From positions 62,001 to 126,000 of the forward strand of contig CAMPDV010000678.1 in the NCBI GenBank assembly GCA_946699065.1: a DNA stretch of 64,000 nucleotides, read 5' to 3'. This stretch comes from Loxodes magnus. Taxonomy: Eukaryota; Ciliophora; Karyorelictea; Loxodida; Loxodidae. A program made the position numbers and the translations under genes. Shown piece after piece: positions 6,924-49,957 of this stretch. How positions within the stretch are numbered: position 1 is the first letter of the stretch; every line of letters begins with the position of its first letter. The notes under the pieces are model-generated. The model saw only the letters and a program-made list of their open reading frames with translations. It had not been told where the DNA came from and searched no databases.

Positions 6924-9191
6924 ATGGCTGAATCTAACAGGTGCAGCTTATGCTTAGTTGATTTCGACTCCTCAATACGAATTCCTGTAACCCTTCCTTG
7001 TGGACATCAAGTATGTCAAATTTGTATTCTTGAAGAATACTTAAAAGAGGGTTCTAATCAGTGCCCAAAAAGAAAGTGTAGAAAAGTTTCATTTAATGAC
7101 CCAAAAGATTTAATAAGCTAAAATAACTAAGCAAGTGAAAGCAAATAAGAATATAAATCACTTCATCTTGAAGAAACTAAAATTGAGCTATCTTACTAGC
7201 AAAACTGAAACAAATAAAAGTCAAGATTTTAACCTTAAATAAAGAAGAAATAAACTTAACAGTAGAAGAAGAAGAAACAATTGAATAACTGAAATAAAAA
7301 TTAGAAAGACTAGAAGGAATTGACACTGATTTTTATGAACTTTATAGATAAAAAGAACAATTAGATAGTTAACATAGAATAATTAAAATGGAGAATGAAG
7401 AAGAAGTTTAATTAGATCTATTGTTTAAGAGATGTAATTAATATAAATTTTAGGAAGTGAGAAAATAAGATAAAATTTAGTTGGTAAATATTAAAAAAGA
7501 AAGTAATTAATAAAAAATTAGTTTTCGAAATAAAGAGAGAATTATATGGTAAATAAATAATAATAGAATGTAAATAATAATAAAAATTAGAAAGTATTAA
7601 ATAGTCAAAAATAAGAGAAAGTAAGAAAATTTAAAAAAGACTAAAATAACTTCGAAAAAAGTTAGAAATAAATGTATAGGAGGTAAATTTTAAAAAGTGT
7701 GTAATATAATTATCAAAAGTGAGTAATATTTTAAAGCTAGAAAGTAATAAAATTAAATTTAAGAATGTAATAAAATAAATAAGATTGTAAGAATAATAAG
7801 AAAGGAAGTAAAAATTAAATATAGAATGTATAAAATAAAAAGATTGTAAAATAATTATATTAAGTTGGTAATTTAACAAATCCAGAATGTAAATTATTTA
7901 ATATATAGCAAGTAAAAATAACAAATAAAGGAGGTAAAAATTAAAATAAGAGGGTGATTCTATTTAAAATAGAATGTAAGATATTTTAAATATTTATAGA
8001 TGGTAAGATATGTTAATAATTATAGGTAGTAAGATATCTTAAATATTTTAGAATGTAAGATATTTTAAATATTTATAGCGAGTAAGATAGTTTTTATTCA
8101 CAGTTTGTATTTAAAAACTATTATAGCTATATATTTTTATTATTATAAGAGGGTATTAAATTATCTTAGGCGGTAAGAATCTACTTCAGGTATCTTTTTA
8201 ATTTTTGATTGTAAGAAATAATTATAAGATGGTTTTAATTTTATTGAAGCTAGTATTTATTAATATTAGTTTGTAATATTTAAGCTTAGTTAGTAATAAA
8301 ATGATATAGAATGTAATATTAGTAATATTTAAAGGGGGTAATGATTGATTTGAAAAGAAAGTAATGTCTAATATAATTGATTAAAGAATGTTAAAGTAAT
8401 TATTAATTTTAGATTATTTATACTAGGTAGTTATTTTTCTATTTTAGGATGTAAATAATTTAATGATAAGTAAGTTTTTGATTATAGAGTGTAATTTTTA
8501 ATATAAGTGGAGATGGAAAACACATTTGACAGTTTTAAATATTTATCTTAAATTAATATTTTATTATTATAATATAAAATGGAAAATTACTTGCAAAAAA
8601 TCTATTCTCTAAAGGAATCATCTTAGTCAAACTACGATTAATAAAAATAATTTAAGAACTCCAAGTCATGCAATTAGAAAATTTTAAACTTTTAAAACTT
8701 TACAAGAACTCGAAAGAAAGCTTGAACATCTGATGATTAACTCATAAGAAAAAAAATTTAAAATAAGCAGCTAGGAATTATAAGGATAGAATAATTAGAA
8801 ACAAAATTTAGACAATTCAGAGTTAACTGAAAGCATATTACTGCAAAAAATGTAGATGAATACTCCGATGAATGTAGAGCAACAGCCTACAACAAATTAT
8901 ATTCCCTATTGGAAAATAATGAGATGTTGATACTGCAAACGACCAGGGCACAAAGTTAGAAGCTGCTTCTAATTCTAATAAAAATAAAAGAAAATAGTAG
9001 AAAACTAATGGGAAAATATTTTCAGGATCTATTGCAATCAAGAAGGTGAATTATACAGAAAAAAATACTCAAGCTAAACAAAGAAGCTCCAAACATATAG
9101 CATGCAATTAACAAATTTAATAAGAAATGAATGGGAATCGATCTATCAGAAACTCTCAGAAAAAAAGATTAAAAATCCTTAGAACATATGA
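6924..9191 (+). CDS. RING-finger / ubiquitin-like / CCHC zinc-knuckle protein with one-codon exon array
   Basis: From ATG 6924 a RING reads CSLC..., CGHQVC, QIC, then CPKRKC, as in E3 ubiquitin ligases. A 53-nt phase-1 intron (7135-7187) would join it to a ubiquitin-fold domain: IKVKILTLNKEEINLTV, then TIEQLKQKLERLEGID, then VQLDLLFKR, matching ubiquitin strands and helix. The domain frame runs to GAA 7454-7456. There 43 consecutive GT..AG introns (7457-8507) begin, separated almost entirely by 3-nt exons. The frame leaves the array intact at TGG 8508 and continues through a Gln/Glu-rich coil (TLQELERKLEHL) to a CCHC knuckle (CWYCKRPGHKVRSC) and RIYCNQEGELYRKK. It stops at TGA 9189-9191. The domain set recalls RBBP6/Mpe1 (UBL, CCHC, RING), but the order differs. 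A paralogous knuckle domain lies at 55756-56613. The RING and UBL are solid; the single-gene model is inferred from frame continuity. Confidence 0.7.
7135..7187 (+). other. Candidate 53-nt intron between RING and UBL
   Basis: GTGAAAGCAAATAAG ... AAAATTGAG. The RING frame and the UBL frame differ by two. Removing these 53 nt at phase 1 makes them continuous. It is longer than the other introns of this gene, so a simple indel remains possible. Confidence 0.4.
7457..8507 (+). other. Array of 43 tiny introns with single-codon exons
   Basis: The pattern AG-NNN-GTAA repeats with striking regularity. Reading GT..AG segments as introns gives 43 of them, most 14-26 nt; two longer ones (8107-8149, 8390-8426) are less certain. 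They begin at 7457, 7484, 7503, 7549 and so on to 8491. The 42 exons between them are 39 exact triplets plus three of 27, 21 and 21 nt, all multiples of three. Spliced, they read as codons in the UBL frame (for example E,C,W,K,N,I,E,N,I,L,N,Q,E,R,N,M,V,N,R,F) and exit in the zinc-knuckle frame. Introns at 7976-8078 are near copies of each other (GTAAGATATTTTAAATATTT), suggesting tandem growth of an intron-plus-codon unit. Alternative: the whole block is skipped as one 1051-nt in-frame intron. Confidence 0.75.
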
Positions 9192-10884
9192 TAAACAAGA
9201 TCTAAGCAAATATGAAGTCTTTTTTTATTAATTTTAAACTTTTGATTTGTGATTAACCAAATAAAGGTGAAATCACGTAAATTAATTAATTTTTGAATTA
9301 GATAATTTAGTTATTTTAAAGTTACCAAATATATTAGCATTATATTTTAAGATCTTTGTTAATTTTCTTACTTTTTCAATATATTAATGAAAAAGTGATT
9401 CCTATTAAGGAGAAGTTGGAATTAGTAATTTAGGTAATATTTTGATAATAGTTAGAGTTTTTTTGCTGATGTATTAAATTTTTATAATAGTTCTTTGATT
9501 CTTAAAATATGTTTAGAAGTTTTTATTTTATATCCTTTCTATTAAATATAGCTTTAGCAAGATTAATGTTTTCTTTGCTGATTGACTAAAGAAAGTATCA
9601 GTTACTGAAATCTGGTATTTTTTTGCCTTTTTATTTTATGTTAATTAAAACTAGAAAGAGAACTATTATACTGATATGTTCAAATGGTACGAAAAGATAA
9701 TGATTCTTTACTATGTTGAACTAAGTGTTGTGCTAGATAGCTTGATAGTGAATAAACCAAGTAGCAACTTCTTTAGCTAAATAGTAAATAAGATTTGTAA
9801 ATTATTAATTTATAAAATATAAATAAATTATTTTAATAATTATCATTTAATTTATTATTTTTAAGCTAAAATATGGGAATTTTCTAATATAATTTTTGAT
9901 ATATATATAAATAATAAAAATGATAGGATAAATAAAATTTAATCTTTTAGCATTTATAATATTAAAGGATAGTTTTAGTTAAAATATGTTTTTAAATAAA
10001 AGAAATAAAGTAATTTAATTATAGTTAAATATTTATGTAACTATAATTTTCTTATTATTAGCAAATTAATAATAATGGCTTATATTTAAATTTCTTTAAA
10101 CTGACAATTATAAAATAATTAATTTTACATAATTATAATGTTTAATTATATTTTGATATATAAATTAATAATTTATACTTAACTTTAAAATATAATAAAA
10201 GTTAGTTAAGATTATTATTATAATTACTTATATTATTTAGAACTAAAAATTATATATTCATTAAATATATAATTATTGATAATTCTTTATTAATTTTATT
10301 TTATACAGTTATCTCTAAAGATATGTTTAACTATATTTACTTTTTAATTCACTAAATTATTGTTTTAATTATTGTAGACATTAATTATCAAATGAGAACT
10401 TTTATATTTTTATAATCTAGTAATCAAATGCTTATTGTTAACCAATTATTTAAAACTCTTATCAAAATTATGAAAAGCATCCTCTTTATTAGTTTTAAAT
10501 TGATACAAAGATAATTAATTCTATCTAAGCATATAATTATTTTATATTTTTGATATATTATTTTTAATATTAATATCTTACTATTATAAAGGATTATTTT
10601 TAACTATATTTTGCTATCATTTAGAATTTTATATTATTAAAGTAATAAAGCTAAAGTTTCCTTTAGTTTACTTAGCACTTAAATTCCTTTTAGATACTTC
10701 TTCCTTTATATTCTCCATCTTTTATTAATTATAGTTAAATAAAGAGTTCTTTAAATGGTTTCATTAACAGTTTAATTAGCTTTTAGAATCTAAATTTTAA
10801 TACTTTTTTATAAAAATAAATGGTTTAAATTTAAGCTATTTAGTAATAATATTTCACTTTAATAAAAGAGTTATTGCATGAAGC
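9192..10884. other. AT-rich intergenic stretch
   Basis: No domain or repeat recognised. A short motif near 9250-9275 (ATAAAGGTGAAATCACGT) resembles 62225-62245 (ATAAAGGTAGAATCACGT). Otherwise featureless. Confidence 0.5.
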
Positions 10885-13640
10885 TGTTTATTTAAATTTA
10901 AAATTTAAATTAAAAGATTTTTTGACATCTATAACTGCATGAATTGCTTCCTTCAATTAAAGACATTAGTAAATGTTTTTAATGCTTTTTAATTATAATC
11001 TTGATCTCATCAATTTTTAATTACTCTTGTTGTAATCTCATCTTTTATTTCTCCCTTTTTTACTTTTTCCATTTCTAATAATTCTAGTCTTCTTGATATA
11101 AGTTTCTTATGAAATATTTTTATTTATAGATCTAAATATCCCAAATAAGAATTCGGAAGGGAGATTATAAATCCTTAATCATATATTATAAAGTGTCTTA
11201 AGTCATAATTCTCAATCTTTTACGATAATCAATCTCTTATATTAGAATAATATATGCATTTAAAAATGTGCTCAAGTGTATCATACTCTCAACGCATGCA
11301 GTAGGGATTATCAATAGGATAATGATGATCTTAAAGATCTTTTCGAAAATTATTAGATTGGGTTCTAAGTTTATATATACTAATAATTTCTTGTCTAAAT
11401 TATTTGTTCAACTTAGTGTAAATAATTACTAGAAATTGGTTAAGTTAAGATTACTAAACTGCTTAGTATATATTTTAGCTATTTTCATTCTCTTAAACTT
11501 TTGAGTAGCTGTATTATAGAAATATTATTGTATTTTGTCTCTTATATATTTAGTAAAAATTTTTAATTTGTACTAATCTTGGTATTCTACAGGTCGATAC
11601 TATAGAGGTCTGATAATTGCTAAACTTGATCATAGCATTGAAATCAAATTTTTTTCAGTTGGTAATGAAAAGAGAGCCTATTGTCGATGTTGAAAAATCA
11701 ATACTTTCTTATTTCATTTTATAATAGAATTTAAAAAACTTTATTGCCATAATGTGTTTGAAAGATAACCAGTTTAAATCTATGAAACATAACTTATTAA
11801 TGTGCTTAAAATGCTTTTCTTGAAATCATTCTCATACTTGATTCAATTCTATTCAAAACTCCAGTTTTTCCTTTCTGAATATACTATGGTTCTACCTATA
11901 CTCCATATTCTGCTTTAGGTAATGTAAAAAATCTGCATAAAGTTTTAAAATGTCAATAATCACATTCTTATATCTAATTAGTTAAAAAACAGCTTTTTTC
12001 ATTACAATTAAATACTTTATCACGACTTCTCTACAATAAGGATTAAAACTCTTCTTCTAATGTAGCATTACATCTAAATATGTTACTAGTTCCTTTTAAA
12101 TAATTGGTTAATTATCTAATCATAAATTTAAATTTTATTATTTATAATGTTTCTTTAAAATTTAGATACATTCAGATTTTATATAATTGATCTTTATATG
12201 TAAAATGCTTATTTGCTTCATTTATTAACTCCTTCATCTACTTTGCAGTTTTAGAAAGAAGAATCAGATCATCTGCTCATCGTCTGCATGCGAAACTACT
12301 ACTCCAACCCTGGCATTTGAATTTCAATCAGGTACTTTTACTTTCCAAATATCTAATTACTATGTCATAATACAACAATGCTAAAATTAGTCCATGTGAA
12401 CTTCCTTACATAACTCCATTGTTGTATAATAATGTTCTGGCGTTCTTTCCATCTATTTTAAATGAAGAATTTAGGTTTTTGTAAAACAACTCTAAGGCTT
12501 TTATTAGTCCAAGTGGTAGTTTAACTCTCTTTAATTGATCTAATAAAAGTTTTCTTTTTATTGAGTCAAACATTTTTCCAACATCTATTAGTGTTGCTAT
12601 CAATTTAGTCTTACTTTTAGCACTTTTCCGATATTTATCAATTATTTGCTATATTATTCAAATTTATTTAGTTTTTTATCTGATTTTTATAAATCCCATT
12701 TATGAAGGGTGAATCAAATTTCTCTAATAAAGCAGATTGTATAGTCTTTTTATTTAAAGCTTTATCATATAGTTTTATAATAATATTAATAAGAGAAATA
12801 GGTAGTCAGTTTTTCCAGTCATCTTTATTTCCTTTTTTAAATATTGGAATTACCGACAATGTATTTAATTCCTAAGGGATTTTTCCAAATCTTAGCATAT
12901 TATTCAGAAAAGAATGAAGGATTATTAACAAATATTATCCACCATATTTCAGAAATTCACCTTTTATTCCATCTGGACCAGCTGCTTTTCCATTCGTAAT
13001 TTCTTTTATAATTCTTGTATGGTAAAAAGATAAAATCCTTATAAATATGAGAGTTGATAATATTTAATTTCCTAAATACTATCTTATATTTTATCTATTT
13101 TTTAATTACTAAGATTTATTTATTATTTAGTTAGATTAGAATGCTTTTAAAAAATAAATGCTTCCATGAATCAATGGATTTATTTTTGATTTCTTAATTA
13201 AAGTTCATTTAATTTATTATTTTAGGCTTTTTAATTTTCTTAGTATGTGAAAATATTTCTTTAGCATCTCCATTTAGAAGCAAAAGTTTCTTTTTTGCTT
13301 TATTTTTTTAAACTTTCACAAATTAGACTTGAAGTCATTCAAAAACTCGTTTCACTGTTTCATGAATATTAGTTACTTATTTGTTTATTCTTCCAGATAT
13401 AATGTGTGCTTCTTTATATACTGAGTTAGCCCTTTTAAACCTTCATATTTCTTAGTAAGATCTCGAGGAAATTTCGTTATAACTGGAGTCTGGAATAAAT
13501 GATCCTAATGTTTAATCAGCATTGTATTAGATGTTATTTTTGATAAATTTTTATTAAACTTCAAGATTATCTTAATTTATCTTAATGAATTCTAGATAAG
13601 TTTGCAGGAAAGATTCTAAATATTTTTGACGATATATTGC
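10885..13640 (-). mobile_element. LINE-type retrotransposon copy A (RT, decayed)
   Basis: Minus-strand non-LTR reverse transcriptase. Motifs from high to low coordinate: NGKAAGPDGIKGEF (motif 0), VIPIFKKGNKDDW, LIDVGKMFDSI (motif A, near 12590), QGSSHGLILALLYYDI (motif B) and RRWADDLILLS, whose Trp is a TGA codon. Downstream frames are disrupted. The 3' end shows a conserved tail with a potential stem (GTCTTTAATTG paired with a CAGTTATAGAT-like strand), also seen in copy C. The 5' boundary near 13640 is uncertain, and no endonuclease domain was recognised. Nearly identical to copy B over its 3' half. Confidence 0.85.
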
Positions 13641-14339: not shown

Positions 14340-16224
14340 ATTATTTTAATTAATACAAAAGATTAAAGTTTTTCTTTTAACCTCTTTTGATATAATGAAA
14401 ACTATATTGATTTCTTAATTATTTACACTTTCATTTTACTAATTCGTATTATTTAATATTAGAATATAATTTTATTCTTATTTTAGATGGAAGTATAAGA
14501 TAATTTACAAGAAAGTGAAGATTTTTATAATTTTGCATACATTCAAATTATTTATATAGTTTACTAGCTAATGCTTTTATATGATAAGCAATCAATTTTT
14601 TAAAAAAGCTTTAAACTTTAATAAAATAGCTTCATTAGAAATTCAAATTTTAAGATTAATAAATAAAATCAATTTTCTATATACGTAGTAGATATATTTA
14701 AGTTGCTTATAATCAGAAAGTTTATCTTTAAAGCTTTTCTTTTTAATATAACAAAATGAGAAAAAATGTTGAAGAGAAAAAATACTTAATATAGCAATTT
14801 TTTTTTTTTAATAATTTTTCTCTTCTAAATTAACATCTTTTCGCAAACTAAAAACGGATAGTTAGTCGTAGTAAGCTCTTTTCAAAGTACTTTTGCTAAT
14901 CTTTTAAAATTTTTAATGCTTTTCTAATTATTATAATAAAATATTTTTTTTATTTGATTTATAAGTTTTTATTTGTATATTTGATATAGTTAGATTAGAT
15001 ATATTATTTAGATCCTTGCTAAATTAATTTTTTGGATTCTATGTAGATTGGTCTAAAATTTATTATTACAGAATCATTATACCACATTTTTCTATTTGAC
15101 TGTTCATATTTTTATAAATGGATTTTTAAACTCCTTTTAGATTAGTTTTTTAACAATTCAGAATACTATTAGAAAAGGTAACTTTAAGCACTCTTATAGA
15201 GGTTTTATTTATTAATTTGTTTCTTCCTAAAATTGTCATTTATTTTTTATATATTTATTTCTTAAAATTAATTAAAAAATTTTTCAAATATTTTAAAATT
15301 CTATCCTTTAAAAAAAATGTATCCATCCTAAAAATCTTCAGTAGCGTATAAGTCAGAGCGAAAAAAGGATAATTTTTTCACGATTTCATGGTTTATTTTT
15401 TTATATCTCCTTTTTTCTTGAGATCCTTTTCATTTAAGTAAATTCTTATATCATTAAAATTTTTAAAGCGAATTTTTTCATTTACTCAAAAAGAATTTCA
15501 AAATTAATTTTTTTTTCCAAAGCATAAACAATAATTTTTTTTATCATTTCAAAAATAATTTACCTTATCAAAAATATATTTTTAAATCAAAAACAGAAAA
15601 ATTTTGTTCAAAATTTTTCAAATCAAATAATTTTCCTACATTTTTTTTAATTTTACTAAATAACATTTCAACAAAAAAGATTTCCAAATTCTACTTTAAA
15701 ATAAATTTTTTAAATCCTATTATTTTCTCAAAAATCTTTTATATTTTGAATTTTTTCTTGAAATTTTATTCCTATTTAGGATTTTTTATCCCGAAATAAA
15801 AAAATTATTCCGTCCCAGAAATCTTTGGTAGTATAAAACGCTGACCAAAAACATATATTTTATTTTCATGAAATTTAAGCTCTACAATTGAAAGGTAATG
15901 ATAAATAAAAAACTTAATATCAGAAAATTTTATTTTCCAATAGGAAGCGAAACATATTAAACATTAAAACTAAAATTTTATAACAAATAAATAAGAATGT
16001 TTATAAGCGCTTATCACACAATTTGCGAGCAGCTCTTTCAATTTTATTATTAAGAAAAATGTTCTCATGTTTCTTGTTAAAATTCTAGAAGTCCGATGAA
16101 TCATATCAGCTTCTCCAAATGGAGAATCTTCTTATTAAAAATTATTCTTAAATCTTGAGTCAGATACTTCAGTCTTCTTGAATAAGGTCCAAAAAGAATT
16201 AATTATTAAGTTGGTAATTAGAAG

Positions 16225-16948: not shown

Positions 16949-18020
16949 TCAACTCGAAACTTTCCACTTTCTTATCGTATTGTCAAGTCCTCCCGATACC
17001 AACCATCTATTATCAACACTCAATGCTATAGAAAGTATTTCATGTTGATGCCCTTACAAAGTCTATATACACTCACCCTTATCAAAGTTCCAGATCTTGA
17101 TTGTATTATCACTTGAACCAGAAAATATAGCACTTGAATCAACACTTAACTGAATACTACGTACAGCACCTGTATGGCCTTAAAGAATACGAATACACTA
17201 ACCAGAAGAGAAATCCCATATCTTAATTGTCTTGTTCCGAGAACCTGATATTATGTATCTATTATCCTTAGACACTATTACCGATCAAACTAATTCTTAA
17301 TGCCCAGTAAGAGTTCGCACAAGCTGACCAGTCTAGAAATCACAAACCTTTATAGAGGAGTCAGTATATCCCGATATAATATATCTAGAGTCATAAGAGA
17401 TTACTACCGAGTAAACTCTAGAAGTATGATCAGTTAAAGTTCTTTGGAGAGCACCATTGTGGAAATTTCAGATCTTTATGGTGTTATCGTAAGATCCTGA
17501 TACGATATAGTTAGAGTCAGGGGAGATTACTACTGAAGAAACTGGGGAAGTATGACCCGTTATAATTCTTATGAGAGCACCAGTCTATAAGTTTCAGATC
17601 TTGATGGTTTGATCAAAAGAAGCTGAAACAATATAGTTAGAGTCTGGGGAGATTACTATCGATCTAACTCAACCAGTATGTCCAGTTAAAGTTCTTAAAA
17701 GAACACCTGTCTGGAAATTCCAGATCTTTATCAAATTTTCATGATATCCTGAACCTGATACAATTCAATTCAGGTCACTTGATATGGCTACCGATAAAAC
17801 AGATGAAGTGTGACCAGTAAGGATTTAGTCTAAAAAATATTAAAGAAATACCTTTACTTTGGTCATAACTGATCTTATTTATTAGTTTTTAGTAGCATAA
17901 GTTAGGCAGAATTTCATACTTAAAATGAAGTAGAGATATTTTCCCTAGAATGTGGTTTCTCGCTCTTAAGAGTTTTCTTAAAAAAATACATTTAGTAAAT
18001 TGCTTTTCTTTTTTCTCCAT
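16949..18020 (-). CDS. Seven-bladed WD40-repeat protein, copy 1
   Basis: ATG at 18020 (MEKKEKQFTK...), a short helical N-terminus, a 28-nt intron (17857-17830, phase 1), then seven WD40 repeats recognisable by GHT, S.D...I.SGS and IKIWNFQTG signatures. It ends KWKVSS then TGA (16951-16949). TAA/TAG are read as Gln (QTG, LQGH) and TGA as Trp in KIW and GHTGW. Predicted 347 aa, the same length as copy 2, with no disruption seen. Beta-propellers are interaction scaffolds; the partner is unknown. The WD40 assignment is certain. Confidence 0.9.
17830..17857 (-). other. 28-nt intron of WD40 copy 1
   Basis: On the minus strand GTAAAGGTATTTC...TTTTTTAG. Its removal joins SYDQ to NQILTGHTSSV. The same intron is present in copies 2, 3 and 4. 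Confidence 0.75.
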
Positions 18021-23240: not shown

Positions 23241-24948
23241 GAATTGCTTCCTTCAATTATAGACATTAGTAAATGTTTTTAATGCTTTTTAATATAATCT
23301 TGATCTCATCAATTTTTAATTACTCTTGTTATAGTCTCTCTTTAATGTCTTCCTTTTTTACTTTTTCCATTTCTAATAATTCTAATCTTCTTGATATAAG
23401 TTTCTTGTGAAATATTTGTATTTATAAATCTAAATATCCCAAATAAGACTTAGGAAGGGAGTTTATAAGTCCTTAATCATATAATATAAGGTGTCTTAAG
23501 TCATAATTCTCAATCTTTTACGATAATCAATCTCTTATATTAGAATAATATATGCATTTAAAAATGTACTCAAATGTATCATACTCTCAACGCATGCAGT
23601 AGGGATTATCAATATGATAATGACAATCTTAAAGATCTTTTCGGGGTTTGTAAGATTGGGTTCTAAGTTTATATATACTGATAATTTCTTGTCTAAATTA
23701 TTTGTTCAACTTAGTGTAAATAATTACTAGAAATTGGTTAAGTTAAGATTACTAAACTGCTTAGTATATATTTTAGCTATTTTCATTCTCTTAAACTTTT
23801 GAGTAGCTGTATTATAGAAATATTATTGTATTTTGTCTCTTATATATTTAGTAAAAATTTTTAATTTGTACTAATCTTGGAATTCTACAGGTCGATATTA
23901 TAGAGGTCTGATAATTACTAAACTTGATCATAGCATTGAAATCCTTTTTTTTCAGTTGGTAATGAAAAGAGAGCCTATTGTCGATGTTGAAAAATCAATA
24001 CTTTCTTATTTAATTTTATAATAGAATTTAAAAAACTTTATTGCCATAATGCGTTTGAAAGATAACCAGTTTAAATCTATGAAACATAACTTATTAATGT
24101 GCTTAAAATGCTTTTCTTGAAATCATTCTCATATTTGATTCAATTCTATTCAAAACTCCAGTTATTCCTTTCTGAATACACCATGGTACTAGTTCTCTCC
24201 ATATTCTGCTTTAGGCAATGTAAAAAATCTGCATAAAGTTTTAAAATGTCAAGGAGTCACATTCTTATATCTAATTAGTTAAAAAACTTTTTTCATTACA
24301 ATTAAATACTTGATCACGACTTCTCTACAATAAGGATTAAAATTCTTCTTTTGATGTAGCATTACATCTAAATATGTTACTAGTTCCTTTTAAATAATTG
24401 GTTAATTATCTAATCATAAATTTAAATTTTATTATTTATAATGTTTCTTTAAAATTTAGATACATTCAGATTTTATATAATTGATCCTAAAGTGCGTTTA
24501 TGTAAAATGCTTACTTGTTTCATTTATTAACTCCTTCATCTACTTTGCAGTTTTGGAAAGAAGAATCAGATCATCTGCTCATCGTCTGCATGCGAAACTA
24601 ATTCTCCAACCCTGGCATTTGAATTCCAATTAGGTACTTTTACTTTCCAAATATCTAATTACTATGTCATAATACAACAATGCTAAAATTAGTCCATGTG
24701 AACTTCCTTACATAATTCCATTGTTGTATAATAATGTTCTGGCGTTCTTTCCATCTATTTTAAATGAAGAATTTAGGTTTTTGTAAAACAACTCTAAGGC
24801 TTTTATTAGTCCAAGTGGTAGTTTAACTCTCTTTAATTGATCTAATAAAAGTCTTCTTTTTATTGAGTCAAACATTTTTTCAAGGTCTATCAGTGTTGCT
24901 ATCAATTTAGTCTTACTTTTAGCAATTTTCCGATAGTTATCAATTATT
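23240..24948 (-). mobile_element. LINE-type retrotransposon copy B (truncated)
   Basis: Nearly identical to the 3' half of copy A: LIDLEKMFDSIKRRLLLDQL, motif B, WADDLILLS with TGA for Trp, and the C-terminal region. It lacks motifs 0-2 because sequence stops at about 24948, exactly where the right arm of inverted repeat 2 begins. At its 3' side it loses the last ~40 bp of the tail and joins a gene fragment. Either normal LINE 5' truncation beside the arm, or the arm was fused into the element. Confidence 0.88.
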
Positions 24949-25866
24949 TGATTAATTAATAACTAATAAAGCTAAAAGGATAAAATATTAATTATTTAAT
25001 AGACATAATTAAACATATTAAAGCTTATTTTAATAATAAAATTAAATATTACTATTTAATAATTGTAAGATAAAATTAGTGATACACCATTTCTAGTTAG
25101 ATTAAATATTTACTTTCTATTACTTATATTTATTACATTTATATAACCTACTTAGAATCAACATTATAATTAATTATATTAGTTTATTATTTTAAAACTG
25201 ATCTTTATAAATAAAAAGTTTTAATGAAATAGTAGTAAGAAAGTGGGCAATTAAAAGAGTTTATCTTATAAATTCTAAAAATGTTTTGTTTTAAGTAATT
25301 TGATGTTTTTTAATATTTATTCAATCTAATTAATAAGAAACTTATTTTATTTCATTTCTTTTAATTAGTAAAAGCTAAAAAAGCTCACTTTTTTTGATTA
25401 AATGTAAGTGAAAAGCAATAATTAATAACAGTAGATTTAAAAAAATTGTATTATTTTATTTATAATTTAAAAGGGTCTATAACGAAATAAGGTTTTATTA
25501 TTAAGAGTCTTTGATTTAAAGCACAAATAAGTAGTAACTAATAAATGAATATTAAAGTTATTATAATAAGGATATAATTATTCGTTATAAAACTTTTGAT
25601 ATAATAATTTATCCTTTTATTTAAAAGTAAAAAGATATAAAATAATTAAAATTTACAAGTTTGTACACTATTAGTTTTATATCTTTCTTGTTTAAGACAA
25701 AAATAGAATTTTTAAATCAATGTTTTAGAAATAAGGTATTTATAAGTATGCTTAATAATAATTTTATTGTTTAATTGTATTGAAATTGATTCAGTAAAAT
25801 TTATTTAGTTATTTTAATTAAATATTTATTGAAGTAAGTTAAAAAATTAAAACGGAGAAAAAATAA

Positions 25867-26938
25867 ATGGAGAAAAAAGAAAAGCAATTTACTAAATGTA
25901 TTTTTTTAAGAAAACTCTTAAGAGCGAGAAACCACATTCTAGGGAAAATATCTCTACTTCATTTTAAGTATGAAATTCTGCCTAACTTATGCTACTAAAA
26001 ACTAATAAATAAGATCAGTTACGACCAAAGTAAAGGTATTTCTTTAATATTTTTTAGACTAAATCCTTACTGGTCACACTTCATCTGTGTTATCGGTAGC
26101 CATATCAAGTGACCTGAATTGAATTGTATCAGGTTCAGGATATCATGAAAATTTGATAAAGATCTGGAATTTCCAGACAGGTGTTCTTTTAAGAACTTTA
26201 ACTGGACATACTGGTTGAGTTAGATCGATAGTAATCTCCCCAGACTCTAACTATATTGTTTCAGCTTCTTTTGATCAAACCATCAAGATCTGAAACTTAT
26301 AGACTGGTTCTCTCATAAGAATTATAACGGGTCATACTTCCCCAGTTTCTTCAGTAGTAATCTCCCCTGACTCTAACTATATCGTATCAGGATCTTACGA
26401 TAACACCATAAAGATTTGAAATTTCCACAATGGTGCTCTCCAAAGAACTTTAACTGATCATACTTCTAGAGTTTACTCGGTAGTAATCTCTTATGACTCT
26501 AGATATATTATATCGGGATATACTGACTCCTCTATAAAGGTTTGTGATTTCTAGACTGGTCAGCTTGTGCGAACTCTTACTGGGCATTAAGAATTAGTTT
26601 GATCGGTAATAGTGTCTAAGGATAATAGATACATAATATCAGGTTCTCGGAACAAGACAATTAAGATATGGGATTTCTCTTCTGGTTAGTGTATTCGTAT
26701 TCTTTAAGGCCATACAGGTGCTGTACGTAGTATTCAGTTAAGTGTTGATTCAAGTGCTATATTTTCTGGTTCAAGTGATAATACAATCAAGATCTGGAAC
26801 TTTGATAAGGGTGAGTGTATATAGACTTTGTAAGGGCATCAACATGAAATACTTTCTATAGCATTGAGTGTTGATAATAGATGGTTGGTATCGGGAGGAC
26901 TTGACAATACGATAAGAAAGTGGAAAGTTTCGAGTTGA
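25867..26938 (+). CDS. Seven-bladed WD40-repeat protein, copy 2
   Basis: ATG 25867 (MEKKEKQFTKCIFLRKLLRA), a phase-1 intron 26030-26057, then seven repeats: IKIWNFQTG, IKIWNLQTG, IKIWNFHNG, IKVCDFQTG, IKIWDFSSG, IKIWNFDKG and the closing IRKWKVSS before TGA 26936-26938. Predicted 347 aa. Five internal TGA codons stand at Trp positions (LNWIVSG, GHTGWV, KIW twice, VWSV). TAG gives Gln in QTG and TAA gives Gln in LQGH. Transcribed away from copy 1, divergently across the spacer. Intact; a recent duplicate of copy 1. Confidence 0.92.
26030..26057 (+). other. 28-nt intron of WD40 copy 2
   Basis: GTAAAGGTATTTC...TTTTTTAG, phase 1. Without its removal the N-terminal exon and the propeller are in different frames. 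Confidence 0.75.
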
Positions 26939-27662: not shown

Positions 27663-29553
27663 CTTCTAATTACCAACTTAATAATTAATTCTTTTTGGAC
27701 CTTATTCAAGAAGACTGAAGTATCTGACTCAAGATTTAAGAATAATTTTTAATAAGAAGATTCTCCATTTGGAGAAGCTGATATGATTCATCGGACTTCT
27801 AGAATTTTAACAAGAAACATGAGAACATTTTTCTTAATAATAAAATTGAAAGAGCTGCTCGCAAATTGTGTGATAAGCGCTTATAAACATTCTTATTTAT
27901 TTGTTATAAAATTTTAGTTTTAATGTTTAATATGTTTCGCTTCCTATTGGAAAATAAAATTTTCTGATATTAAGTTTTTTATTTATCATTACCTTTCAAT
28001 TGTAGAGCTTAAATTTCATGAAAATAAAATATATGTTTTTGGTCAGCGTTTTATACTACCAAAGATTTCTGGGACGGAATAATTTTTTTATTTCGGGATA
28101 AAAAATCCTAAATAGGAATAAAATTTCAAGAAAAAATTCAAAATATAAAAGATTTTTGAGAAAATAATAGGATTTAAAAAATTTATTTTAAAGTAGAATT
28201 TGGAAATCTTTTTTGTTGAAATGTTATTTAGTAAAATTAAAAAAAATGTAGGAAAATTATTTGATTTGAAAAATTTTGAACAAAATTTTTCTGTTTTTGA
28301 TTTAAAAATATATTTTTGATAAGGTAAATTATTTTTGAAATGATAAGAAAAATTATTTTTTATGTTTTGGAAAAAAAAAATTTAATTTTGAAATTCTTTT
28401 CGAGTAAATGAAAAAATTCGCTTTAAAAATTTTAATGATATAAGAATTTACTTAAATGAAAAGGATTTCAAGAAAAAAGGAGATATAATAAAATAAACCA
28501 TGAAATCGTGAAAATATTATCCTTTTTTTCTCTCTGACTTATACGCTACTGAAGATTTTTAGGATGGATACATTTTTTTAAAGGATATAATTTTAAAATA
28601 TTTGAAAATTTTTTTAAATGACTTTTAAGAAATAAATATAAAAAAATAAATGACAATTTTAGGAAGAAACAAATTAGTAAATAAAACCTCTATAAGAGTG
28701 CTTAAAGTTACCTTTTCTAATAGGTATTCTGAATTGTTAAAAAACTAATCTAAAAGGAGTTTAAAAATCCATTTATAAAAATATGAACAGTCAAATAGAA
28801 AAATGTGGTATAATGCATCTGTAATAATAAATTTTAGACCAATCTACATAGAATCCAAAAAATTAATTAAGTAAGGATCTAAATAATATATCTAATCTAA
28901 CTATATCAAATATACAAATAAAAACTTATAAATCAAATTAAAAAAAATGTTTTATTATAATAATAAGAAAAACATTAAAAATTTTAAAAGATTAGCAAAA
29001 GTACTTTGAAAAGAGCTTATTATGACTTATTTGTTTGATTTTAGTTTGCGAAAAGATATTAATTTAGAAGAGAAAAACGAGTTTTTAAGAAAAATTGCTA
29101 TATTAAATATTTTTTATCTTTAAAATTTTTCTCATTTTGTTATATTAAAAAGAAAAGCTTTAAAGATAAACTTTCTGATTATAAGCAACTTAAATATATC
29201 TGCTGTGCATGTTGAAAATCGATTCTATTTATTTAATCTTAAAATTTGAATTTCTAATGAAGCTATTTTATTAAAGTTGAAAACTTAAAAAAAATCTATT
29301 GATTGTTTATCATATAAAAAGCATTTGCTAGTAAACTATATAAATAATTTGAATGTATGCAAAATTATAAAAATCTTCACTTTCTTGTAAATTATCTTAT
29401 ACTTCCATCTAAAAAAAGAATAAAATTAATTCTAATATTAAATAATACGAATTAGCAAAATGAAAGTGTAAATAATTAAGAAATCAATATAGTTTTCATT
29501 ATATCAAAAAAGGTTAAAAGAAAAGCTTTAATCTTTTGTATTTATTAAAATCA

Positions 29554-39550: not shown

Positions 39551-40619
39551 ATGGAGAAAAAAGAAAAGCAATTCACTAAAATTATTTTTTTAAGAAAACT
39601 CTTAAGAGCGAGAAGCCACATTTTAGGGAAAATATCTCTATTTCATTTTAAGTATGAAATTCTGCCTAACTTATGCTACTAAAAGTTAATAAATAAGATC
39701 AGTTATGACCAAAGTAAAGATATTTCTATAATATTTTTTAGACTAAGTCATTACTGACACTTCTCCTGTTTGATCGGTAGCTATATCAAGTGACCTGAAT
39801 TGAATTTTATCAGGTTCAGAATATCCTGAAAATTCGATAAAGATCTGGAATTTCCAGACAGGTACTCTTCAAAGAACTATAACAGGACATACTATTTCAA
39901 TTTACTCGGTAGAATTCTCCCTTGACTCTAGCTATATAGTTTCAGCATCTTACGATAAAACCATAAAGATCTGAAACTTATAGACTGGTTCCCTCATAAG
40001 AATTTTAGCAGGGCATACTGACTCAGTTAGATCGGTAGTAATTTCCCCGGATTCTAAATATATTATATCAGGATCTTCTGATGCAACTATAAAGATCTGA
40101 AATTTCCACAATGGAACTCTCTAAAGGACTTTGTCTGGACATACTTCTATAGTTTTCTCGGTAGTAATCTCTTATGACTCTAGATATATTATATCGGGAT
40201 CTTCTGATGCAACTATAAAGATCTGGAATTTCTAGACTGGTCAGCTTGTGCGAACTCTTACTGGGCATTCATGCTGAGTTTTATCAGTGATAGTGTCTAA
40301 AGATAATAGGTATATAATATCTGGTTCCCGGGACAGTACTATTAAGATATGGGACTTCTCTTCTGGTTAGTGTATTCGTACTCTTTAAGGTCATGCAGGT
40401 TCTGTATCAAGTATTCAGTTAAGTGTTGATTCAAGTGTTATATTTTCTTGTTCATGGGATGAAACAATCAAGATATGGAACTTTGATAAGGGTGAGTGTA
40501 TATAGACTTTGTAAGGGCATACGTGATGAATATGGTCTATAGCATTGAGTGTTGATAATAGATGGTTGGTATCGGGAGGACTTGACAAGACGATTAGAAA
40601 GTGGAGAGTTTCGAGTTGA
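39551..40619 (+). CDS. Seven-bladed WD40-repeat protein, copy 3
   Basis: ATG 39551, 28-nt intron 39714-39741 (GTAAAGATATTTC...TTTTAG), seven repeats, ends KWRVSS then TGA 40617-40619. 346 aa, one residue shorter than copies 1-2 because three bases are missing at the first GHT (reads ITDTSPV). Repeats 2-4 have diverged (for example YDKTIKIW, SDATIKIW), whereas the last repeats are close to copy 2. Frame intact from start to stop. Confidence 0.88.
39714..39741 (+). other. 28-nt intron of WD40 copy 3
   Basis: GTAAAGATATTTC...TTTTTTAG at the same phase-1 position as in copies 1 and 2. Confidence 0.7.
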
Positions 40620-47269: not shown

Positions 47270-49957
47270 TCAACTCTTCTTCTCATCAAATTTACTTATT
47301 TTTAAACTTTCAAACTTTAATTCTTATGAGCCTTCATCTAATAAAAAAACTATATCTTAACTTTATTATTTTATACTTTATTCTTACTTCATCGTTTTAG
47401 ATTGGCTCTACTAACTTATATTTCCATCTTATTTTTATGGATTTCACTTTAACTTTAGTCTTTCTATCTAATTTATAAAGCTATCTATATCAGGTCTAAT
47501 GTTTTAGTCGAAAGCCAAGCATCTGTAGAATAGATCAGTTAATTCAGGTTCTTATAGTATTTCTCTGGAAAACATAGGAATCATTTTATTAATATAAACT
47601 ATTTACTTTAGTTATTCTTACTCATTTATATTTGGATAAAGCATTTCTTCATTGAATATTTCTATTCCAATACAACCTAAAGATCAGATATCACTTTTCA
47701 TAGTCAAATTTCTGTCAAATTACTCAGGAGCCATTCATTGATGTAATCCTCTTTACTTTATTGTTGTTAACCAGTTATTATTATCGAATAATCCTAAAAT
47801 AACTATTTTAGGTTAATATTTCTCATCTAGTAGAATATTTAGAGATTTTAGTTCTTTATGTATTAAGTTTCTAGAGTGAATAGCCTTTAAACCCTCCGCT
47901 ATTTAACTAAGTAAATTAAGTTTCTAGTAATATCTTAAATGAGATCCTATTTGACTTTCTTTGAATAGCTACTTAGTCTAAGTTTATTAGAATAAACTTG
48001 CAAATCACTAAAAATCTGTTAAGAGGCATAAATTGAAACTTCCTTGTTCTTAAGTATCAATAGCAACTCCTGTAAGTCTTTAAACTCTTAAGCTATTTAT
48101 TAATAGAAGTTCTTTACACTCGAAATAGAACTAATTTAGTAAAGCCTGAAGATCAGTATTTTAGTGAAATACTTTAAGTGCATAATAAGACCCATCGATA
48201 GTAATAAGATACACAATTCCATATTAATCTTTAGCTAATACTTAGTAGTTATCTAGAAATTCAATATTAGGAATTAAGATTCTAAAGTTTAATATTCTAA
48301 TTTTAGACTTACAATCATAACCTGCACCATTTTAATATAAAAGCTGTCAAATTTGTTCTAAAGTAATGGAATTCTAATGCTATAAATCTAAAGAATCATT
48401 ATCTATTTAGGGAATTTCAAGTTAGGGGTTTAATTTTTTAGCTTTAATAAAACATTAGAGTGCTTCTTTAGTTTTTTTTAAAGCTTACAAAGATAAACCT
48501 TTGTAGTAATGAGCTTTTGCATAGTTTGAATTAAGCTAAATAGCTGTGTTAAAACATTAGATTGCATCATAAAAATTTCCAAGTTTATATAGAGAAAAGC
48601 CTTTATATTTGTAAAATTCTGGGAGAATAGAATTTAACTGAATAGCTTAGTTAAAACTTTAAATAGCTTCCTAGTATTTCCCTAACTTTCCCAATGTCGA
48701 TCCTTTATTACTATGTACAGTTACATCGTTAGGATCTAGTTTAAGAGCTACATCATAACTATAAATCGCTTCTTAATATTTTCCTAACTTTTCCAATGCA
48801 AATCCTTTGTTATTATGCGCAGCTGCATAATCAGGTTCTAGTTTAAGAGCTACATCATAACTATAAATCGCTTCTTAGTATTTCCCTAACTTTTCCAATG
48901 CCGATCCTTTGTTATTATGTGCAGATGCATAATTAGGGCTTAGTTTAAGAGCAACATCATAACTCTAAATCGCTTCTTAGTATTTCCCTAACTTTCCTAA
49001 CGCCAATCCTTTGTTTTTGTGTACAGTTGCAATATTAGGGTCTAGTTTAAGAGCTAAATTATAACTCTAAATCGCTTCTTAGTATTTTCCTAAGCTTTCC
49101 AAGGTGAATCCTTTGTTATTATGTATAATTGCAATATTAGGGTCTAATTTAAGGGCTACATCATAACTATAAATCGCTTCTTAGTATTTCCCTAAGCTTT
49201 CCAAGGCGAATCCTTTGTTATTATGAAAAATTGCATTATTAGGATCTAATTTAAGAGCTACATCATAACTCTAAATCGCTTCTTAGTATTTCCCTTACTT
49301 TCCTAACGCCAATCCTTTGTTATTATGTACAGTTGCATTATTAGGATCTAGTTTAAGAGCTGCATCATAACTCTAAATTGCTTCTTAGTATTTTCCTATA
49401 TTTCCCAATGCCAATCCTTTGTTATTATGTACAGTTGCATCGTTAGGATCTAGTTTAAGAGCTACATCATAACTCTAAATCGCTTCTTAGTATTTTCCTA
49501 TATTTTCCAATGCCGATCCTTTGTTACTATATATAGTTGCAATATTAGGGCTTAACTTAAGGGCTACATTATAACTCTAAATCGCTTCTTAGTATTTCCC
49601 TAACTTTCCTAACGTCAATCCTTTGTTATTATGTACAGTTGTATTATTAGGATCTAGTTTAAGAGCTACATTATAACTCTAAATCGCTTTTTAGTATTTT
49701 CCTATATTTTCCAAGGTGAATCCTTTGTTACCATGTGCAGTTGCATCGTCAGGGTTTAGTTAAAGAGCTGTATCAAAGTTCTATATCGCTTCTTAGTATT
49801 TCCCTAACTTTCCCAATGCCAATCCTTTGTTATTATGTGCAGTTGCATCATTAGGGTCTAATATTATAGCTATATTGAAATACTCAATAGCTTCGAGATA
49901 GTTTCCTTCTTTTATTAATTAGATTCCCTTTAGATTATACTGATTTGCTTCTGACAT
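47270..49957 (-). CDS. TPR-repeat protein with C-terminal pseudokinase domain
   Basis: ATG 49957 (MSEANQYNLKGIQLIKEGNY). About fourteen to fifteen 34-residue TPRs (residues ~5-505) follow, most nearly identical: LDPND.T.HNNKGLALGKLG then KYQEAI. A kinase-like domain follows: LAKDQYGIVYLI (degenerate Gly loop), ALKVF with Lys 595, IHSRNLIHKELKSLNILL, KIVILGLF, MAPEQF (742-747), KSDIWSLGCIGIE with Trp 758 as TGA, and RCLAF..NIRPDIDSF. HRD reads HKE (700-702) and DFG reads LGL (721-723). Both catalytic Asp residues are thus lost and the domain is probably inactive, acting as a scaffold or regulator. No intron is needed. The end is either TGA 47446-47444 (837 aa), right after the C-lobe, or TGA 47272-47270 (895 aa) with a Gln-rich tail; the longer model is given. 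Confidence 0.9.

Follow-up and report, generated by a model that had tools for sequence, protein, structure and literature searches.

We analysed a 64,000-nt stretch of the genome of the ciliate Loxodes magnus (contig CAMPDV010000678.1, positions 62,001 to 126,000 of the forward strand), hereafter the window. It carries one copy of a gene family that we call RING-UBL, after the RING finger and the ubiquitin-like (UBL) domain of its first exon. This exon is followed by about 1 kb of tiny segments with intron-like ends, separated mostly by single triplets. For translation, TAA and TAG were taken for glutamine codons and TGA for a tryptophan codon; under this code the genes yield known domains. 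The window copy is laid out as follows, in positions of the window:

6924..7433, + strand: first exon, encoding a RING finger and then a ubiquitin-like domain; the frames of the two domains are split by a 1-nt deletion at ~7201-7204
7434..7453, + strand: true first intron of the array, GTAATTAATATAAATTTTAG, in phase 1; missed in the original prediction for this DNA and recognised by comparing its length in two family copies, L015 and C4
7454..7975, + strand: 5' zone, with 22 introns, 15-24 nt long, between 3-nt exons; two longer exons measure 27 and 21 nt
7976..8103, + strand: satellite zone, short in the window copy, with 5 introns akin to GTAAGATATTTTAAATATTTATAG and variable triplets between them
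8104..8507, + strand: 3' zone, with more tiny introns and 3-nt exons, and a 21-nt exon at 8190-8210
8127..8152, + strand: lost 5' splice site; CTA followed by GTATTTTTT in other copies, CTATATATTTTT in the window copy and its near relatives
8508..8573, + strand: start of the C-terminal exon, whose phase-1 frame is EMENTFDSFKYLSQI, from comparison with sister copies
8574..9280, + strand: insertion of ~707 bp with a zinc-knuckle-like reading frame, from comparison of copies
9281..9445, + strand: remainder of the C-terminal exon, its presumed end being a TGA at a common place in the sister copies compared

The domains of the first exon were named from sister copies. Two of these score 25.7 and 23.3 bits against Pfam zf-C3HC4 (curated cut-off 21), and the ubiquitin matches have E-values of 2.6e-4 and 5.6e-5, both falling short of the family cut-off. 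The zinc knuckle of the insertion matches zf-CCHC at E=0.026, which falls short of the cut-off. A ~74% identical counterpart of the insertion lies elsewhere in the copy L040, in reversed orientation.

The array in the window and its reading frame

The motif AG-NNN-GTA is repeated throughout window 7457-8507. In this region 30 of 43 GTA[AGT] sites sit exactly 3 nt past the nearest AG, and the longest uninterrupted run of GTA..AG introns with 3-nt exons comprises 13. The recurrence of AG-NNN-GTAA over ~1 kb described in the original prediction is borne out and goes beyond what shuffled sequence gives: among 300 second-order Markov shuffles the longest chain was 4, reached in two. On the + strand of the whole 64-kb window, spacings of 1, 2 and 4-9 nt gave no chain of four or more, and no second array of 3-nt exons was found elsewhere in the window; the opposite strand gave a single chain with 5-nt spacing, inside a simple 9-nt repeat. 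Parsing 7457-8507 yields 43 introns and 42 exons, namely 37 of 3 nt, two of 21 nt and one each of 27, 9 and 26 nt. The number of 42 exons equals that of the original prediction, but 37 rather than 39 of them are 3 nt long, and one, of 26 nt, is not a multiple of three. An all-multiples-of-three reading needs an alternative parse, for instance one that takes the broken 8127-8152 into a longer intron. The array is beyond chance and, as described below, more widespread than had been thought.

In the original prediction, whole codons ran from the UBL frame into the array, beginning with GAA. The interval 7434-7453 differs in length between L015 (20 nt) and C4 (21 nt), and only if it is an intron, placing the array in phase 1, do both copies keep the UBL frame. 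We conclude that the array has an extra intron at the entry and its codons are split 1+2, and that GAA 7454-7456 forms a single-codon exon of its own. The first exon falls in the length class giving phase 1 in 34 of 37 distinct located examples (seven entries were not located). Phase 0, the frame of the original prediction, reads plausibly but skips the intron 7434-7453 and frameshifts C4. At the other end, the C-terminal exon in phase 1 gives a protein common to several copies (FKYLSQI ... EKLIPIKEM) with a single TGA end. Other copies contain frameshifts, in which case the TGA falls in another frame, and L040 has an extra TGA upstream of the end.

Constraint and decay in the RING-UBL family

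The family is large. A RING query gave at least 150 matches in the genome (the best 150 of 3,465 candidates were scored), and one 30-mer of the RING exon occurs exactly 110 times. Our family set holds 52 entries from 50 places (L010 with L039, and L014 with L040, come from the same places), with 47 unique 5'-zone sequences; L002 and L008 were merged as C10 in this set, and L042 (no start) as well as L001, L003-L007 and L009 (overlaps or other copy) were left out. The RING, the ubiquitin-like domain and the array are common to all copies compared, as is the C-terminal exon where covered.

Compared with the others, the window copy is decayed and finds no support as an intact gene: it has the 1-nt deletion between RING and UBL, has lost a donor near 8130 and has lost a TAG acceptor near 7614. 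Some of these defects are found in its near relatives. Among 36 locus entries whose junction is readable, 27 lack the zinc-knuckle insertion. The nine that have it represent five places, namely the window and four of its near relatives, and the zinc knuckle is not supported as the downstream exon of the family. The original prediction had also taken the match between the array's exit frame and the zinc knuckle as evidence; this argument falls because the zinc knuckle is an insertion, absent from most copies compared. In several copies, homology begins and ends sharply near window 6102 (5') and 9545 (3'). We considered these positions as the ends of a mobile unit, but mobility is not supported, as many copies have common flanks further out.

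In the 5' zone of the 47 unique copies, exon lengths are largely kept and introns are variable, with an additional 6-nt exon in many copies. Distinct gap intervals number 39 confined to introns versus 2 confined to exons (426 vs 109 columns; P=0.006). In L055 and L035, a deletion at window 7551-7616 takes out whole units of intron plus exon and leaves a possible GT..AG intron. Mean diversity is lower at GT (0.021) and AG (0.013) than inside the introns (0.062) or in the triplets (0.068-0.118), in an alignment where introns 7594-7617, 7723-7740 and 7744-7763 are partly misaligned. Without splicing, the length up to the satellite start falls into the three frames in 21, 16 and 10 copies: intron indels alter the unspliced frame between copies, and exon lengths stay mostly constant. 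A frame-blind splice parse, possible in 46 of the 47 copies, makes 926 of 949 exons multiples of three. When triplet diversity over the 47 copies is broken down by codon position, no clear pattern of purifying selection emerges.

The diverged copy C4 (C4:2193000-2198900; entry L001) has an intact RING-UBL frame. Between C4 and L015 the nonsynonymous and synonymous rates (dN/dS) of the RING-UBL region are 0.253/0.757, a ratio of 0.33. Parsed frame-blind, C4 has 114 introns (113 distinct), and 105 of its 113 exons are 3 nt long. Its chain of 3-nt exons is 36 long, or 50 with GC donors, compared with 5 reached in 200 shuffles with GT donors. Intron lengths are 15-27 nt (parser limits 14-30). Nearly all of its ~96 units keep AG-NNN-GT/GC. 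Relative to the unit, G1 is altered in 2.1% and T2 in 8.3%, the latter mostly to C (7 of 8); A23 is altered in 0% and G24 in 2.1%, against 18.1% in the interior. Indel positions, tallied per position and not per event, are 76 intronic and 1 exonic (P=0.001). When C4 and L015 were parsed by hand, a parse that involves the analyst's choice, 17 of 17 exon pairs were equal in length (3, 3, 27, 3, 3, 6, 21, 3 ...), while the introns were 76.5% identical and 11 of 17 unequal in length. A decayed family copy on contig C6 (L089; 32 units), which matches the L040 array at 72-74% and has UBL matches in two frames, does not keep the motif in this way. Its interior change is 23.2%, with 15.6, 3.1 and 18.2% at G1, A23 and G24; the ratio of splice-site to interior change is 0.53 in L089 compared with 0.08 in C4. 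The joined linker of C4 and L015 was also tried for dN/dS (0.28/0.86 in phase 1), but 7.5 synonymous differences underlie this value, and phase 2 equals it.

A satellite takes up the middle of the array. Its 27-nt units each consist of a 24-nt intron plus a 3-nt exon, and 47 zones, several of them incomplete, have 6 to 72 units. These near-identical units support the predicted growth by tandem duplication for the middle of the family's array. The unit pattern occurs 27,235 times genome-wide and not once in the reversed control. The intron is 24 nt long in 1375 of 1549 units, and lengths of 23, 22, 21 and 20 nt also occur. We aligned 43,784 nt of satellite to a cyclic unit without requiring GT or AG; incomplete units of L014 are also counted in L040, which slightly doubles unit counts. 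A23 is altered in 4 and G24 in 0 of 1624 units, G1 in 1.0% and T2 in 2.2%; over positions 3-22 the values are 0.7-6.9%. Changes at T2 are mostly to C (26 of 36), giving GC donors. Counted as variants per site over 129 distinct 24-mers, G24 has 0, A23 1, G1 3 and A14 3; the next lowest position has 6 and the interior mean is 12.1. A14, one of the four least variable satellite positions, is altered in 10.8% in C4, where it does not stand out, and is invisible in the profiles of L087 and L088, the arrays in other genes introduced below. It lies within TTTTAAA, which we take to resemble the branch site in UACUAAC. A change of the terminal TAG to TAA would be synonymous in this code, yet it occurs in zero cases, which argues for a 3' splice site and not a glutamine codon. 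The satellite triplets are 40-62% non-consensus. Hypermutation of the triplets was considered and dropped, as 148 unit pairs with identical neighbours gave four distinct differences, all intronic and too few.

The same architecture in other genes

Genome-wide, the pattern TAGNNNGTAN{9,13}TAGNNNGTA is matched 1,782 times and its reversed control 549 times, with simple repeats contributing. Clusters among the first 100 matches, on contigs C1-C16, led to C16:344600-347000 (L087) and C10:1009300-1011900 (L088); a third cluster, on C6, is the family copy L089. By blastn, the similarity of the C16 and C10 loci to the RING-UBL family and L089 is limited to short stretches (29-100 nt, 76-93%). Frame-blind parsing of C16 gives 98 introns, all distinct, with 93 of 97 exons multiples of three (74 of 3 nt and 14 of zero length). 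C10 has 89 introns, 87 of them distinct, and 83 of 88 exons are multiples of three (69 of 3 nt, 7 of zero length). The same parse gives 118 of 124 for C4, zero-length exons included. In shuffles (n=20 each) the multiple-of-three fraction averaged 0.33 (maximum 0.51) for C16 and 0.32 (maximum 0.71) for C10, and at most 8 and 5 exons, respectively, were of 3 nt. Intron lengths are 16-26 nt in C16 and 16-25 nt in C10 (parser limits 15-26). Base composition is alike between the introns of the two arrays (P=0.45) and differs between their exons (P=5e-6). Counting the RING-UBL family, the single-codon-exon architecture is present at three or more different gene loci.

A kinase open reading frame (PF07714, E=2.5e-33) lies upstream of the C16 array and continues into its first intron, which it meets in phase 1. 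When the first 61 non-empty exons are joined in the frame of the kinase, they give 66 aa (WEICCFYTIMFMGFGQGWIIMIFGIFLLAGW...) with 1 charged residue and a mean hydropathy of 1.55, the protein parse favouring multiples of three and the tested part stopping before the first non-multiple exon; the other two frames have 12 and 4 charged residues. Among 2000 shuffles of exon order, the observed hydropathy was reached in 5, and one charged residue or fewer in 12. We infer that the joined stretch may be a membrane segment. It had zero matches in the PDB and in a phage collection. TMEM43 matched it at E=1.6, and was set aside: the genome's three TMEM43 matches are located elsewhere. By eye, and in a parse favouring multiples of three, the C10 array likewise appears to start in phase 1, and to read as a charged, helix-like stretch.

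The kinase-array gene occurs twice on C16 (266181-267145 and 344600-347000), in opposite orientation and with identical matched strings; it may have undergone inverted duplication recently, or the second place may be produced by the assembly. Directly abutting AG and GTA, that is, a zero-length exon, is found 15 times in C16, against 2 and 1 at spacings of 1 and 2 nt; the corresponding counts in C10 are 8 against 11 and 3. In C16 these sites look like abutting introns or recursive splice sites, a feature that is not general, as C10 differs.

Proposed splicing of single-codon exons and its alternatives

We consider it probable, at roughly 0.84, that the array consists of real spliceosomal introns, ~15-27 nt long and removed singly, so that the 3-nt exons are joined in frame. 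Splice-site constraint, the C4 copy and the other loci lend comparative support to the original proposal of tiny GT-AG (and some GC-AG) introns between single-codon exons. The comparisons show the structure, how it is conserved, how its frame works and that it returns in other loci; the splicing itself, the order of its events and the production of protein we infer from them. An ordinary N-terminal domain would be followed in frame by the joined single-codon exons. All introns of a run would lie in phase 1, each codon being split and each exon supplying two letters to the end of one codon and one letter to the start of the next. Each tiny intron would be recognised as a unit, by intron definition, and every splicing event would lengthen the upstream exon by one codon (3 nt). 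Because exons are whole triplets and introns of one phase, loss or duplication of exons would keep the frame. In the RING-UBL family, the mid-array 27-nt satellite would grow by tandem duplication, and unequal exchange among near-identical introns would add, remove and reorder codons. We further lean towards the view that codons are each split by their own intron (~25 nt of DNA per codon, ~90-130 introns) in several unrelated genes, and that the RING-UBL array is in addition a fast-evolving codon cassette, in which exchange within identical 24-nt introns gives many linker variants per genome.

Several results weigh against in-frame joining of coding triplets. Many family copies, the window copy included, are decayed. 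The exon total of the 5' zone is divisible by three in just 29 of 46 copies by frame-blind parse; the other 17 may have lost the frame by decay or through parse errors. Exons of the satellite zone show no depletion of indels (8 of 82 distinct contexts, 9.1 expected), and frame constraint accordingly shows in the older array parts but not in the youngest. In-frame TGA is rare in phase 1 of this zone (2 of 1469 codons, compared with 183 and 172 in the other frames), but random pairing of satellite triplets already predicts 4.4. C4 offers a weak contrast, with 3 TGA in phase 1 versus 6 and 8, of 109, in a parse that misplaces some exons, the 27-nt exon included, and C16 offers none (1 versus 2 and 0, of 95). 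Amino-acid identity between the joined 5' zones of C4 and L015 is 17/34, 15/34 and 18/33 and does not distinguish phase 1. Pfam gave nothing significant for the joined stretches (best E=0.03 and 1.6), and the number of strongly hydrophobic windows in C16 is not unusual, since 278 of 2000 exon shuffles reach it. Finally, a joined 209-nt query from L015 found no joined copy among 79 matching places in the genome (40 of 241 candidates scored). Its best matches end where the UBL exon ends, and eleven others, 74-76% identical over query positions 73-165 and lying close behind UBL-exon matches, are inside family arrays. A 39-aa joined peptide in phase 0 had zero matches in the genome as well; being in the wrong phase, it is weak evidence either way.

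What the triplets are for is the point on which a different account of the same splicing could hold. If the spliceosome were limited to ~15-27-nt introns, a long non-coding insert could be removed only when tiled with splice units, and the triplets would be neutral scars that keep the frame. This account has the splicing step in common with ours and denies the importance of the codons. It fits the hypervariable satellite triplets, the undepleted satellite exon indels and the frequent abutting sites of C16, though not those of C10. It does not predict that the C16 triplets join into a hydrophobic stretch in the kinase frame, or that exon composition differs between C16 and C10 when intron composition does not. 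We regard it as possible but doubtful: C16 speaks for triplets that would be coding, and those of the satellite zone may be either codons that matter or frame-keeping scars.

Accounts that do without the individual splicing events fare worse. The entire array could be one long intron from the first GT to the last AG, its internal sites being decoys or relics; the flanks can be joined by themselves and the satellite zone looks repetitive, but this gives no reason for internal GT, AG and triplet spacing to persist over ~96 diverged C4 units and 98 distinct C16 introns, and published L. magnus introns are short (mean 19.3 nt, 93% of 25 nt or less; PMC11441545). We hold this to be quite unlikely, and no more probable is a non-functional satellite or decaying mobile repeat that inherited its pattern from an ancestral unit and has no present function. 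High copy number (110 exact 30-mer copies), decayed copies and fast unit turnover would suit such a repeat, whereas the contrast between splice sites and interior in C4 and the satellites, the RING-UBL dN/dS of 0.33, and arrays in which 98 of 98 and 87 of 89 introns are distinct would not. It is very unlikely that the 27-nt units stay unspliced and encode a repeat of the form V-R-Y-F-K-Y-L-Q-X, in which one residue varies: the main 24+3 unit does make nine codons, open in this code, but the unspliced phase varies among copies (21/16/10), introns of 23, 22, 21 and 20 nt exist, TAG never becomes the synonymous TAA, and other arrays have mixed intron lengths. Least credible is elimination of the array from DNA during nuclear development, like an internal eliminated sequence (IES), instead of splicing from RNA. 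Such excision is common in ciliates, but the assembly that contains the array (705,730,643 bases, 7,843 contigs) agrees in size with the published macronuclear one of 706 Mbp, and the genome paper detected no classical IESs in L. magnus (PMC11441545); the boundaries in the array are moreover GT and AG rather than TA repeats.

Individually removed introns also agree with what has been reported for this species. The main text of the L. magnus study (PMC11441545) gives a mean intron length of 19.3 nt, a mode of 17 nt and 93% at 25 nt or less, with UGA as the sole and ambiguous stop, and the array introns resemble these in size and AT-richness. Intron lengths of 15-16 nt are given for the heterotrich Stentor (PMC9505925). 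The GT/GC..AG ends of the arrays are more conserved than the intron interior, as in spliceosomal introns. A Hisat2 alignment at a minimum intron length of 10 is expected to miss 3-nt exons. This is the setting of the published L. magnus mapping (PMC11441545), and the main text of that paper does not mention consecutive single-codon exons, words with 'exon' appearing only in two reference titles.

Within the literature covered, the nearest described gene type is the micro-exon gene (MEG) of Schistosoma mansoni, which, like the arrays, consists mostly of short multiple-of-three exons and is difficult to annotate automatically (PMC10526429). MEG exons are mostly of 15 bp (range 6-81 bp in its text, 3-81 bp in its abstract), with 10-20 per gene and introns of 0.1-5 kb, according to the same account; the arrays differ in having mostly 3-nt exons, ~90-130 introns of ~15-27 nt, apparently one phase, and a ciliate host. 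Microexons of plants and animals, which can be as short as a few nt, stand isolated beside long introns and are not known to come by the dozen in a run. They are similar in that very short exons can be spliced in, as proposed here (PMC8831610, PMC7821500, PMC12409088). Introners and intron gain by tandem duplication provide a parallel for near-identical introns that multiply and for duplication of intron plus exon, although the accounts at hand do not describe them as head-to-tail arrays with one-codon exons (PMC4974935, PMC4457414). A literature search at the level of titles and the beginnings of abstracts, with few subscription papers or preprints, did not find runs of single-codon exons. 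We would file the arrays provisionally under tiny-intron, microexon genes, as a variant without a match in the literature searched.

If spliced as we propose, these transcripts would work near the lower limit of exon and intron size together, about a hundred times per molecule. They would put to the test models of exon bridging, of exon holding by U5 and of the minimal spliceosome footprint, and would be a natural substrate for the question of an obligatory 5' to 3' splicing order. Ordinary RNA-seq alignment would then overlook part of the L. magnus coding sequence. The arrays also present intron multiplication at several ages, from fresh satellites through an older diverged copy to fully diverged arrays elsewhere.

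The window contains further repeats. A 9-bp repeat, TCAGCTACA, is present at 1362-1803 in 49 copies that are 99% alike. Tandem repeats of 126 bp lie at 17368-17731, 26229-26514 and 39837-40321; judged by eye, they probably encode WD40 repeats. At 48655-49860 there are 11.8 copies of a 102-bp tandem repeat, which from its length we guess to be a 34-residue repeat such as TPR. Two pairs of long repeats are 95% identical, 10941-12648 with 23241-24950 and 14343-16000 with 27887-29551, the latter pair being inverted.

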